In this document: piece after piece, positions 14,239 to 26,237 of the stretch | Numbering within the stretch: position 1 is the first letter of the stretch | How the letters are laid out: the number at the start of each line of letters is the position of its first letter | Origin: Pedosphaera sp. | GTDB taxonomy: Bacteria > Verrucomicrobiota > Verrucomicrobiia > Limisphaerales > Pedosphaeraceae | DNA: 64,000 bases | Assembly: GCA_028293325.1 (NCBI GenBank) | Contig: JAQGPA010000074.1 | Span: forward strand, 1 to 64,000 | Reading direction: 5' to 3' | Program-made: the position numbers and the translations under genes | Notes under the pieces: generated by a model | What the model saw: the letters and a program-made list of their open reading frames with translations, nothing else | The model's database searches: none | Told to the model about the DNA's origin: nothing

Positions 14239-15402
14239 TTACTTCTTCAATCCGACGCTGCTGGCCCGCTTGGCGATTTTGCGGCTGGTCTTGATTTTCG
14301 TCACGGTGCCAATCTTCAAATACTTTTGCCGGATGGTTTCGTAAATCTCCTCGCGGCGTTGATGGAGGCGCTTGAGTTTGCGCGGCTTGACCCGGCTCAG
14401 GCAATACGCCGTGAGCAACGGCAATGCAATCGTGGAATCGACATAAGCCACGACGCAATCCGGGAGCGAGTCCGGATCCACCTTGCCCCAACTGACAGCC
14501 TCGGCCGGTGTGGCACCGCTCAGGCCACCGGTATCGGGACGCGCATCGGTGCATTGCAGGAAATAATCGTGCCCCTTCTCCTGGATGCCCATGACCTCCT
14601 GGATTTGCGGCTCGGTCTGGAGCATGAAATTCTTGGGCGAACCGCCACCGAGGATGAACACGGAGGACTTGTGTCCGCTTGACTTGGCTTCATACACGAT
14701 GGCGGCGGTCTGATTGACGTCGCGATTGACATCCAGCAGCAGTTGGGAATCGCGCATGGCCATGGCGGCCACGTTCATGCCGATGGAGCTGTCCCCGGGG
14801 CTGCTGGTAAAGATGGGGATGCCGCACTCGTAGGCGGTGGCCAGCATGGAACTGTCCTTCAAGCCCAGCTTCCGCCCGCGTTCGTAAATATATTTGCCGA
14901 GCAGATAGTGAAATTCATCCGTGCCCATCGTGCGCTGAAATTCCGGGCCGCGAATCACTTCGCGCACGAACGCATCGGTATCGAGCAGCACATTGTAATC
15001 AAAAAGAATGTCGTAGATGCGGATGACGCCATCGCGGTGGAGATCGACGTCATTGAGGAACGGCGACCCGGCGTAGAGCTTCATGTTCAGCCCGTAATGC
15101 AGGTCATGGTAAAGATTCGCGCCGGTGGAGACGATCCAATCGATGAAGCCCGCTTTCATGAGCGGGATGAGGCAGGATTTTCCCAGGCCGGCCGGCGTCA
15201 ACGCGCCGGTCAGGCTCATGCCGATGTAGCCATCGTGCGGCAACATCTTTTCGACGAGCAATTTTGCGGCTTCGCGCAAACGTCCGCCGTTGTAGGCGAG
15301 AAAAGTCTGGTCGATGAGGTCGGCGGCGGAAATATTTTTACCCACGCCCAGGGGATTGAGGCGCGGGTAGGCGGCAAATTTACGAGATACTGATTTACTC
15401 AT
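14239..15402 (-). CDS. Deoxyhypusine synthase-like protein
   Basis: 387-residue NAD-dependent enzyme of the deoxyhypusine/homospermidine synthase family, which moves an aminobutyl group from spermidine. The family core is clear: [18 protein letters not shown] near residue 60, [18 protein letters not shown] near 88, [13 protein letters not shown] near 198 and [12 protein letters not shown], in which Lys307 matches the active-site lysine of eukaryotic DHS (Lys329 in human). Bacteria lack eIF5A, so a polyamine product such as homospermidine, or another protein target, is more likely. The C-terminus (361-387) is a strongly basic tail. It converges on the cyclase gene with 28 bases between. Confidence 0.88.
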
Positions 15403-22436: not shown

Positions 22437-23480
22437 TCAGCGAGTCCGTTCGAGCAGCAGGCGCCACAGCCATTGCCAGCGCGGCGTCAAGAGCACCAGG
22501 GCATCCTGAAAACGATCCAGAAACATCAAGCGTTGCAGGGCACGTGCCCAGGCGAGCCGCCGGGCAAATTGTTCGTCGCAATGGCGGGCGACGGTTTGTT
22601 GCGCCTCAGGCCAAGTCATCTCGCCACGGCTGTACGCGGCAATCGGTTCAATGGCCAGTTCGGCAGACTCAAAGGCCATCGACATGCCGTTGCCGGTGAC
22701 GGGTGGAATCATGGTGATGGTGTCACCAATGCAACATTCACTGGAGGCCACGGCCCGTTGCGGTGCCAACGAAAGCCCGGCCACGGAACAAAAAGAGTTT
22801 TCGTCGAACACGGCATCAGCGAGGCGGCCATGCCGGAGCGAGCCCATCGCGCCACGCAAAGTTTCCTGCCAGCGGAGCGGAGCCTCCGCCGTGGTGACGG
22901 GCCGGCGAAAGAGGCCGCAGATGTTTACTTCCCCGTCTGTCAGCCGGCTGATGCCGACATAGCCGGCCGGAGAGAGATGCATTTCCAGATCAGCGGCAAG
23001 CTGGACGTTGCGGGCATGGACCTTCAAACCGAACCAGCGCCAGCCGTCGGCCACTGGTTGAACCCGTCGTCCAGTGGCGCGCACGATGCCGGCGGAAAAA
23101 TCATCGGCGCGCCAACGCTCGTTCTCGCGCAGCTCGCCGCCGAGTTGGCGGTATTGCGCGGCCAACAGTGCGTCGAGCACAAAGCGGGAGACCAACATGG
23201 CCGGCTCGGACAATTCACGAATGGGAGATTTCCGGCGCGGAGAAAAGAACGCGGCGGTGTGCCCGGAGATTGCGCCGGCCGCCATGAGCGGTTCGCGCAG
23301 GCCAAGACGGGCGAGCGTGGCCTGGCCGCGACCGCTGATAAATTCGCCGCACACGCGATGCCGCGGATAATGCCCGGCTTCCCAAACCGTCACGGGAATG
23401 GAACGCTGGCGCAGGCCGATGCCGAGCGTGAGTCCGGCCAGGCCGCCGCCAACGATGGTGATGGGCTTTTTATCGGGCAT
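22437..23480 (-). CDS. FAD-dependent oxidoreductase in the type III PKS operon
   Basis: About 347-residue flavoprotein of the geranylgeranyl-reductase/aromatic hydroxylase fold. The N-terminus has the Rossmann motif ITIVGGGLAGLTLGIGLRQR, then RHRVCGEFISGRG (the C-G-E pattern common in GGR-like enzymes) and a second FAD motif CIGDTITMIPPVTGNGMSMAFESA. The C-terminus is a basic amphipathic segment that might touch the membrane. The start is ATG 23480, two bases after the stop of the methyltransferase gene, so the three genes T3PKS-methyltransferase-oxidoreductase form one operon. It probably hydroxylates or oxidises the polyketide product (inference). Confidence 0.86.
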   Translation of the reverse strand: MPDKKPITIVGGGLAGLTLGIGLRQRSIPVTVWEAGHYPRHRVCGEFISGRGQATLARLGLREPLMAAGAISGHTAAFFSPRRKSPIRELSEPAMLVSRFVLDALLAAQYRQLGGELRENERWRADDFSAGIVRATGRRVQPVADGWRWFGLKVHARNVQLAADLEMHLSPAGYVGISRLTDGEVNICGLFRRPVTTAEAPLRWQETLRGAMGSLRHGRLADAVFDENSFCSVAGLSLAPQRAVASSECCIGDTITMIPPVTGNGMSMAFESAELAIEPIAAYSRGEMTWPEAQQTVARHCDEQFARRLAWARALQRLMFLDRFQDALVLLTPRWQWLWRLLLERTR

Positions 23481-23482
23481 GT

Positions 23483-24184
23483 TCAACCTGCCTGGCTCCG
23501 CTCTGCCATGAAAGCGTGCGTAAACAACCCTGCGGTTCGCTCCCGCAACTGCCATTGCGGACGGGCCGGCCAGAGGCTGGAAAGTTCCTGGTCCGCGAAA
23601 CCGGCGCGGACGCTTACCACGGCATCGTGGCGCGTGACTGCGTTGCAACCGATCAAGCCCAACATCCGGCTAAACGCGAGTGCGAATTGCGAACGCCATG
23701 GCTCGCACGCGACGAACACGCGAGTGCGGTCCGCAGCGAGATGCAGCAACTCGGAAAGTTGCGGGCTCGAAAAGTGATGCAGGAACAAATTGGCGATCAT
23801 GGCATCCGCCGGTTCCGTCGCGGGTTGGCGCAGCCAGTCGAAGACGTCAGCGGTCACAATTTCCACGGACCAACCCAAGTCCTGGAATCCAGCGCGCGTC
23901 TCGACGGCGACGGCATGCTTGCCGTCCACGAGCACCACTTGCACGCCTGGCCATTTCGGAGCGAGTTGGCGCGCAAGCCGCAGCATCAAGGTGCCATCCC
24001 CCGCGCCGAGTTCAATCATCCGGCGCGGCGGCTGTGAACGCTCCGCTGCTTGCAAGAGTTGACGCAAGCTGGTGACGTGACCCATTAAACTATTAAGACG
24101 ACGTAAATCCTGACGCGAGCCGACCGCGCCGGGGTCGTCGGGCGGAAGATCATCCAGCCACTCAGGTTCAATGACGCGTTTCAT
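23483..24184 (-). CDS. SAM-dependent methyltransferase in the type III PKS operon
   Basis: About 233-residue class I methyltransferase. Motif I is MIELGAGDGTLMLRLARQL, followed by the acidic strand end VVLVDGK, VEIVTADVFDWL and the FLHHF segment after motif IV. The correct start is ATG 24184 (MKRVIEPEWLDDLPPDDPG): the frame upstream runs through the T3PKS gene and is a shadow. It starts 11 bases after the T3PKS stop and ends 2 bases before the oxidoreductase start. A role in O- or C-methylation of the polyketide product is likely but not proven. Confidence 0.85.
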   Translation of the reverse strand: MKRVIEPEWLDDLPPDDPGAVGSRQDLRRLNSLMGHVTSLRQLLQAAERSQPPRRMIELGAGDGTLMLRLARQLAPKWPGVQVVLVDGKHAVAVETRAGFQDLGWSVEIVTADVFDWLRQPATEPADAMIANLFLHHFSSPQLSELLHLAADRTRVFVACEPWRSQFALAFSRMLGLIGCNAVTRHDAVVSVRAGFADQELSSLWPARPQWQLRERTAGLFTHAFMAERSQAG

Positions 24185-24195
24185 TGACGACACGC

Positions 24196-25254
24196 TTACT
24201 TGACCTGGAGCAGAGCGCCGTGGCAACTGAACCCCGCACCGAAGGAGGAGAGCCACCAAAATCCTCCCGGAGCGTTTTCGGCCAGCGCAGACTGCAAGGC
24301 AAAGTAAACGCACGGGCTGCTGATGTTGCCAAAATCGCGGAGCACGGCCGCGCTCCACTGCACATCCGCGGCGGACAACCCGAGCCGTTCCTGCAAGGCC
24401 AGCAGGACATCGCGTCCGCCGGCATGCCAAATCCAGCCGGTGATTTGATTCCGCGATACGCCAGCATCGGTGAGCACATCATGCAGCAATTTTTCCGCGT
24501 GGCGGGAGGCCAACTCCGGCACCGCGGGGCTGAGGATGTTGCGCAACATGCCATTTTTTTGTTCGAAGCGGAGCAGATCCCGCTCAGGCGCGGAGAGCAC
24601 GGAGCCAGCCCGATGCCAGGCCACGGCGCGGCCGGCTGGGTTGGGTTCGCTGGCCAAAACAGCGGCACCCGCGCCATCGCCAAAAAGGCAGGCGCTGATT
24701 AATACACCAGGATCATCATCGAGGTAAAAGGCGGCGCTGCAAATTTCCACGCAAATGGAGAGAACGCGACGGCAGCGGCCCGAGGTTAACAAGGCTTCGC
24801 CGGTGCGCAAATTCGGCAACGCCGCGCCACACCCCTGCCCCACCAAATCCAATCCCAACACATCCACGCGCAAGCCGAGTCTTTCGCTGACATAGCTGGT
24901 CAAGCCGGGACAGAGATACCCGGTGCAAGTGCTGATGACGATGGCATCGATTTCGTCGGCCGGGGTTCCGGAATTCGCCAATGCTTTTTGGGCGGCCTCG
25001 GTGGCCAGCAGGGGCGCGTGGCGGGAAAACCGGGCGTGGAGAACGTCGGGATTGAGATCGAACGCTTCGTGCAATGAATCAAAAGCAAGGTGTCGGGTAT
25101 CGATGCCATTATTGCCCGTGAGCACTTTTCGAAGAATGGCATGGGAACGAGTGGAGAGGCGGGAGAATTGCGCCGATGCCTGCAAAGCTGCCCAACATTC
25201 GCTTTGTTTATAGCGTTGCGGTGGTGCTGCTGTTCCAAGTCCCGTAATAAACAT
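24196..25254 (-). CDS. Type III polyketide synthase (chalcone/stilbene synthase family)
   Basis: 352-residue homodimeric condensing enzyme that extends a starter acyl-CoA with malonyl-CoA. The catalytic triad is complete: Cys142 in LDLVGQGCGAALPNL, His277 in WIWHAGGRDVL and Asn310 in RDFGNISSPCV. Also seen are STCTGYLCPGL near residue 110 and the terminal GGFWWLSSFGAGFSCHGALL. Length is at the short end of the family (350-400). The start is ATG 25254. It opens a three-gene operon with a methyltransferase and an FAD enzyme, and is divergent from the cyclophilin gene 140 bases away. The product could be an alkylpyrone, alkylresorcinol or similar phenolic lipid. Confidence 0.93.
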   Translation of the reverse strand: MFITGLGTAAPPQRYKQSECWAALQASAQFSRLSTRSHAILRKVLTGNNGIDTRHLAFDSLHEAFDLNPDVLHARFSRHAPLLATEAAQKALANSGTPADEIDAIVISTCTGYLCPGLTSYVSERLGLRVDVLGLDLVGQGCGAALPNLRTGEALLTSGRCRRVLSICVEICSAAFYLDDDPGVLISACLFGDGAGAAVLASEPNPAGRAVAWHRAGSVLSAPERDLLRFEQKNGMLRNILSPAVPELASRHAEKLLHDVLTDAGVSRNQITGWIWHAGGRDVLLALQERLGLSAADVQWSAAVLRDFGNISSPCVYFALQSALAENAPGGFWWLSSFGAGFSCHGALLQVK

Positions 25255-25394
25255 GTTGGATAGTAGCGCGTTTTTTGAGCAAAAGCCAGTCTTGGTATGA
25301 GGCACGAAAGGGAGTTTTATTCACGAAGAAAATGCCCACCCGGATTGCGATTGGAAACCCTTGCGCAGACGAATCAATCTGCTACTTTCGCGCC

Positions 25395-26237
25395 GTGAAG
25401 GCCATTCCCTTCCTGTTATGTTTGATGTTTGCGGCCTTTAGTCCGACCCCGGGCCTGGCGGATGCGCTTCCCATTGTCAGATTTCACACTACCTTCGGCG
25501 ACATTGACTGCCAACTGCGGTCGGATGTTGCCCCGAAAAATGTTTCCAATTTTTTGGCTTACGTGGATGGCAATTACTATACCAACAATCTGATCCACCG
25601 CTCCATTCCCGGATTTATCTTCCAAGGCGGGGGCTACGACGTGCTGAACGGAAATATAGTTGCAATTCCGACTGGCCCACCGGTTACCAACGAGTTTTCC
25701 CTTTCAAATAAACGGGGGACACTGGCCATGGCAAAGTTACCCGGTGACCCAAACAGCGCCACCTCCCAATGGTTTTTCAATGAGTCGGACAACAACGCTG
25801 CCTCACTGGACACACAGAATGGAGGCTACACCGTGATTGGGCAGGTTACGCCCGCCACGATGGGTGTAATGGATGCCATCGCCGCCGTGCCGGTCCCCAC
25901 TCCCCCACCTTTTGGACCGCCGCTGGATCAAATGCCCTTGCGCAACTACACCCAAGGCAATCCGGTCAGCACCACCAATATGGTCTTTGCTCTTTCCATT
26001 GTGCGGGTCGTGTCGCCGCCCCAAATCAGCATGACCGTCACGGGGACAAATATCGCGATCCTCGTCAGCAGTTTTTCGCGCCACACCTATCAACTCCAAA
26101 GTAGCAGCCAGCCGGTAAGCGGCACCTTCACCAACGTTGCCGCGCCGCAGAATGGCGTTACGGGCACAACGCTCACCTTCACTGCAACCACCATGAGCGG
26201 CACCAATGGCTTCTATCGTATTGCGATTTTCCCTTGA
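25395..26237 (+). CDS. Secreted cyclophilin-type peptidyl-prolyl isomerase with C-terminal module
   Basis: About 280 residues from the GTG at 25395. A signal peptide (AIPFLLCLMFAAFSPTPGLADA) precedes a cyclophilin domain: FHTTFGDIDCQLRSDVAPKN, NLIHRSIPGFIFQGGGYD, FSLSNKRGTLAMAKLPGDPN, SATSQWFFN and YTVIGQV. The catalytic Arg in HRSIPGFIFQGG and the SQWFFN substrate-binding segment are kept. The last ~75 residues form an added beta-rich module (YQLQSSSQPVSGTFTN ... GTNGFYRIAIF) similar to the end of the haloperoxidase. The upstream 40 codons in frame lack family similarity and are not counted. Confidence 0.9.
   Translation: MKAIPFLLCLMFAAFSPTPGLADALPIVRFHTTFGDIDCQLRSDVAPKNVSNFLAYVDGNYYTNNLIHRSIPGFIFQGGGYDVLNGNIVAIPTGPPVTNEFSLSNKRGTLAMAKLPGDPNSATSQWFFNESDNNAASLDTQNGGYTVIGQVTPATMGVMDAIAAVPVPTPPPFGPPLDQMPLRNYTQGNPVSTTNMVFALSIVRVVSPPQISMTVTGTNIAILVSSFSRHTYQLQSSSQPVSGTFTNVAAPQNGVTGTTLTFTATTMSGTNGFYRIAIFP

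Follow-up and report, generated by a model that had tools for sequence, protein, structure and literature searches.

A widespread type III polyketide synthase, methyltransferase and FAD oxidoreductase operon of Verrucomicrobiota with a putative phenolic lipid product

In Streptomyces griseus, the srsABC genes encode a type III polyketide synthase (T3PKS), a methyltransferase and a flavoprotein hydroxylase, which lead to methylated alkylquinones. The hidABC operons of Cyanobium and its relatives, which make hierridins, likewise combine a T3PKS with a methyltransferase and an oxidoreductase; a hidC>hidA>hidB arrangement has also been described, and how one of the products, hierridin C, becomes chlorinated is not known (PMC8086630). 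In Planctomycetota, Milke et al. found that T3PKSs encoded by operons of the MT-FAD-T3PKS type and its variants make 5-alkylresorcinols from fatty-acyl starters, the products being 5-pentadecyl- and heptadecyl-resorcinols. When the methyltransferase (MT) and FAD genes of G. maris were added, methylated products were obtained, and the role of the FAD enzyme stayed open (PMC10896814). In the characterised operons of this kind, no gene for a dedicated ligase is included, and the starters are long-chain fatty-acyl units (PMC10896814, PMC8086630).

An operon of the same composition was found in a window of 64,000 nucleotides from Pedosphaera sp. (contig JAQGPA010000074.1), of the Pedosphaeraceae (Limisphaerales) in Verrucomicrobiota. 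On its minus strand, the genes for a T3PKS (24196-25254, 352 aa), a class I SAM-dependent MT (23483-24184, 233 aa) and a FAD-dependent oxidoreductase with a PHBH/GR2 fold (22437-23480, 347 aa) follow each other, all three with ATG starts as read from the sequence. The first two are separated by 11 bases (24185-24195) and the last two by 2 bases (23481-23482). Direct reading of the minus-strand open reading frames thus matched exactly the layout and spacing given in an earlier, sequence-only reading of this DNA. Its claim that no activating enzyme or transporter adjoins the operon also held, the neighbours being thiE and the genes for a PfkB kinase, a cyclophilin, deoC, a malate dehydrogenase and an aldehyde dehydrogenase.

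The three genes are co-directional, as in hidABC, and their order is one of the two described for that operon: PKS>MT>FAD in the window corresponds to hidC>hidA>hidB, and the order found in Opitutae to hidA>hidB>hidC (PMC8086630). In contrast to hidABC, the window belongs to another phylum and its PKS to a separate clade, as judged through planctomycetal operon PKSs. With the Planctomycetota operon the window shares a compact form and three gene families, homologous by profile, whereas the PKSs are only about 30% identical and fall into separate clades (AU p = 4e-5), and the gene order is PKS>MT>FAD instead of MT>FAD>PKS (PMC10896814). The gene content and order of the window also occur in plasmid PKS-MT-FAD sets of Deinococcus proteolyticus, Paenibacillus cellulosilyticus, Microvirga terrae and Caballeronia sp. 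SBC2. Unlike that of the window, the PKSs of Deinococcus, Paenibacillus and Microvirga share a clade with the planctomycetal operon PKSs, whereas the Caballeronia set differs from the window in its distant FAD protein and in its extra genes for an ACP and a ketosynthase (KAS). No description of the operon in Verrucomicrobiota was found in the literature searched, coverage of which was partial, and at the level of titles and abstracts T3PKSs of this phylum appeared only in connection with general genome or metagenome cluster surveys. As such operons have been described before in cyanobacteria and planctomycetes, the window mainly extends them to another phylum with an enzyme lineage of its own.

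Conservation of the three genes was followed by running profiles built from the window proteins over the fetched loci. All three genes were present together on one strand in 68 of the 80 best named loci; a further eight were cut by contig ends, and four had full context but lacked one or both partners. Co-occurrence in relatives, the loss of which had been named beforehand as the result that would refute the proposal, was therefore kept. The order PKS>MT>FAD was found in Limisphaerales and several other lineages and MT>FAD>PKS in Opitutae, with the MT adjoining the PKS in nearly all relatives. The MT and FAD genes, 2 bases apart in the window, overlap by 4 bases in many relatives, which suggests translational coupling. 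Compared with four relatives, pN/pS values were 0.20-0.32 for the PKS, 0.29-0.45 for the MT and 0.23-0.39 for the FAD gene; the operon is under purifying selection. Synteny, selection and motif conservation rule out chance open reading frames.

The nearest named relatives of the PKS were from metagenome-assembled genomes (MAGs) of Pedosphaera sp., with 82% identity in RYN_620, and the gene was present in all eight genomes of the family examined (that of the window plus seven others). Of 286 genomes sampled from the class, a PKS of the window clade was carried by 110 (about 38%), taking E values under 1e-60 as the limit; no values fell between there and 1e-38. Some hosts are named strains, among them Opitutaceae bacterium EW11 (L075), in which the operon has the order MT>FAD>PKS, and the operon is widespread rather than unusual.

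In close relatives, the operon is flanked by deoC upstream and thiE downstream, as in the window, which identifies it as an inherited chromosomal locus. Recent horizontal acquisition is ruled out for the family of the window by these shared flanks in Pedosphaera relatives and by the presence of the PKS in all family genomes; the operon is chromosomal and vertically maintained. In the window, a gene for a cyclophilin-type prolyl isomerase (25275-26237) sits between deoC and the operon; the close relatives with the same deoC-operon-thiE surroundings (L032, L034) gave no match to this gene. Elsewhere in the window, positions 14239-15402 encode a deoxyhypusine synthase family protein (PF01916, 231 bits), here in a bacterium.

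Both chalcone/stilbene synthase domains, N and C (PF00195/PF02797), were detected in the T3PKS above the Pfam cut-off. The triad Cys142/His277/Asn310, claimed to be intact in the sequence-only reading, was indeed aligned and conserved in 98-99 of 99 homologues, with alignment gaps as the only exceptions. The AlphaFold model (pLDDT 88.6) had M. tuberculosis PKS11 as its best PDB match (TM 0.90), a fit that hardly exceeded those to plant stilbene and chalcone synthases. The enzyme is the one T3PKS of the genome, the sole other match being a FabH-like gene. The domains, the triad, the fit to PKS11 and the separation from the FabH-like gene place the enzyme among the type III PKSs. A function like that of PhlD was rejected, as PhlD belongs to a different clade and its partners are missing.

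In the tree, the Verrucomicrobiota PKSs formed a clade apart from the planctomycetal operon PKSs. Grouping both in one clade was rejected (AU p = 3.8e-5), with planctomycetal operon PKSs as the only representatives of the HidC/planctomycetal lineage. Genomes drawn around G040 were taken here as Planctomycetota, since many of their operon PKSs group with the named Paludisphaera sequence. Within that scope, membership of the window PKS in the HidC/planctomycetal clade was ruled out; the enzyme would work like the planctomycetal lineage without being a member of it. As the clades are separate and identity is about 30%, the homology is not close enough to carry over product specificity. We infer the starter, the product, the order of tailoring and the reaction of the flavoenzyme by analogy with the described operons.

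Outside Verrucomicrobiota, homologues of the PKS, MT and FAD genes were found in various orders on plasmids of the planctomycete Paludisphaera borealis and of Deinococcus proteolyticus, Paenibacillus, Microvirga and Psychrobacter. The MT>FAD>PKS set of P. borealis was homologous to the window operon by profile (E values of 4e-22 for the MT, 6e-35 for the FAD protein and 9e-65 for the PKS). On the Caballeronia sp. SBC2 plasmid, a PKS that is 58% identical and lies inside the window clade is followed by an MT, a distant FAD protein and then the ACP and KAS genes, the latter KAS-II-like (L114, 12192-13708). On the Novosphingobium plasmid pLA3, ACP and KAS genes precede the T3PKS (L168, 1811-3243). 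The ACP and KAS genes near both T3PKSs hint that starters are bound to ACP or that the chain is extended further.

The distant FAD type of Caballeronia was also found in MAGs labelled as Proteobacteria, the PKSs of which nest among Limisphaerales sequences; this suggests a transfer in which the FAD gene was swapped. PKS and MT of the window type were seen with the distant FAD subfamily at loci L114, L038, L044, L045, L054, L055, L057, L061, L062 and L074. In this subfamily GN-AAGEAHP replaces GDxxTMIPP and GYGGM replaces GYVGI, and these loci suggest that PKS and MT stayed together while a different FAD gene took the place of the original one. A different arrangement was observed in three genomes from the phylum of G040, which carry a T3PKS about 38% identical to that of the window (L170, 3533-6058; L171, 3529-6025; L172, 5054-7563). 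This T3PKS is directly preceded by a conserved protein of about 475 aa, the start of which (MNVLIVITNRY...VLDLMF) resembles that of a B12-binding radical SAM enzyme; the two apparently form a different, conserved two-gene pair.

The gene families and the conserved three-gene set support the earlier proposal of a type III PKS operon, the product of which is probably methylated and oxidised. We consider it moderately probable that this product is an alkylresorcinol-like phenolic lipid built on a fatty-acyl starter. The T3PKS would take a long-chain fatty-acyl thioester that ordinary fatty-acid metabolism supplies on CoA or ACP, add three malonyl units and cyclise the tetraketide to a 5-alkylresorcinol. 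The MT would then methylate a ring carbon or a phenolic oxygen, and the flavoenzyme would oxidise, probably hydroxylate, the ring, giving a hierridin-like methoxyphenol or an alkylquinone. A lipid starter is made more likely by the characterised ligase-free operons together with the ACP and ketosynthase genes downstream of the Caballeronia set, and the closeness of the T3PKS model to PKS11, a long-chain alkylpyrone synthase, also supports a lipid product. No measured product was found for any PKS of the window clade. A more tentative idea is that the Verrucomicrobiota PKS clade gained or retained MT and flavoenzyme partners of these kinds separately from the HidC/planctomycetal lineage. It would then make a phenolic lipid with a scaffold of its own or employ a flavoenzyme reaction that hierridin biosynthesis is not known to use, the product being a widespread lipid of Verrucomicrobiota.

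The sequence-only reading had instead proposed a small product, a phenolic or pyrone that is then methylated and oxidised, with a starter probably drawn from central metabolism; such a small starter would be acetyl-, malonyl- or aryl-CoA. Neither the small size nor this starter source fits well with the described operons with MT and FAD partners, which make lipid resorcinols from fatty-acyl starters and are ligase-free (PMC10896814, PMC8086630), or with the ACP and ketosynthase genes in Caballeronia. A small phenolic or pyrone of this kind is thus unlikely, although no acyl-activating enzyme lies nearby and the best NCBIfam match of the T3PKS was DpgA, which forms 3,5-dihydroxyphenylacetyl-CoA from malonyl-CoA. 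This match was far under the cut-off (159 vs 425 bits), there are no dpgBCD neighbours and DpgA lies in another clade, so that a DpgA function was rejected.

Many bacterial T3PKSs make pyrones, and PKS11, the best structural match, is an alkylpyrone synthase. The enzyme of the window could accordingly use a long-chain acyl starter and release alkyl-pyrones by lactonisation, to be methylated and oxidised afterwards. We regard this as rather improbable, as the edge of PKS11 over stilbene synthase was marginal and the characterised T3PKSs from operons with an MT and a FAD oxidoreductase made resorcinols (PMC10896814).

As regards the enzymes that would modify the alkylresorcinol, the MT matched Methyltransf_25 (Pfam) and was PRK06202-like but under the cut-off. 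The oxidoreductase has a PF01494 FAD-binding domain (Pfam), and its GxGxxG, YPRHRVCGEF and GD motifs are present, whereas the DG motif appears degenerate. Its best family match was TIGR02032, geranylgeranyl-reductase-like, with 52.8 bits against a cut-off of 158.8, compared with 21 bits against 224.65 for UbiH (TIGR01988). Therefore, the earlier description of this enzyme as geranylgeranyl-reductase-like and not UbiH-like was right in the ranking of the two families, but both scores are below the curated cut-offs. The label is also too specific, since the top Foldseek matches of the AlphaFold model (pLDDT 83.4) were the flavin-dependent halogenases PltA, ChlB4, Mpy16 and PltM, with the geranylgeranyl-reductase-like 3oz2 and phenol hydroxylases close behind in the PDB; 3-hydroxybenzoate 6-hydroxylase and PqsL were matched as well.

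In the motif survey, neither the halogenase motif WxWxIP nor the reductase motif YxWxFP was present in the FAD enzyme or in any of 85 homologues. At the equivalent place, which was located from its position and from a partial MenJ match beginning at residue 173, the enzyme reads GYVGISR. Assignment as a geranylgeranyl reductase was rejected on the TIGR02032 score and the missing YxWxFP, and assignment as a halogenase on the missing WxWxIP despite the nearest fold. A halogenated phenolic end product is thus very improbable, even with halogenases as the top structural matches and a chlorinated hierridin C (PMC8086630), the fold being common to hydroxylases and reductases. The enzyme is best called a PHBH-fold flavoprotein (PHBH/halogenase/geranylgeranyl-reductase fold) that probably acts as a ring oxidant.

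Members of Verrucomicrobiota abound in soils and waters, and to our knowledge few natural products are known from them. The presence of the PKS clade in about 38% of the sampled genomes of the class suggests that a common phenolic lipid has gone unrecognised in these bacteria, and this frequency, together with hosts that are named strains, makes the pathway testable. The operon also bears on whether such operons spread by transfer of the whole cassette or by repeated assembly with different PKSs and FAD enzymes.
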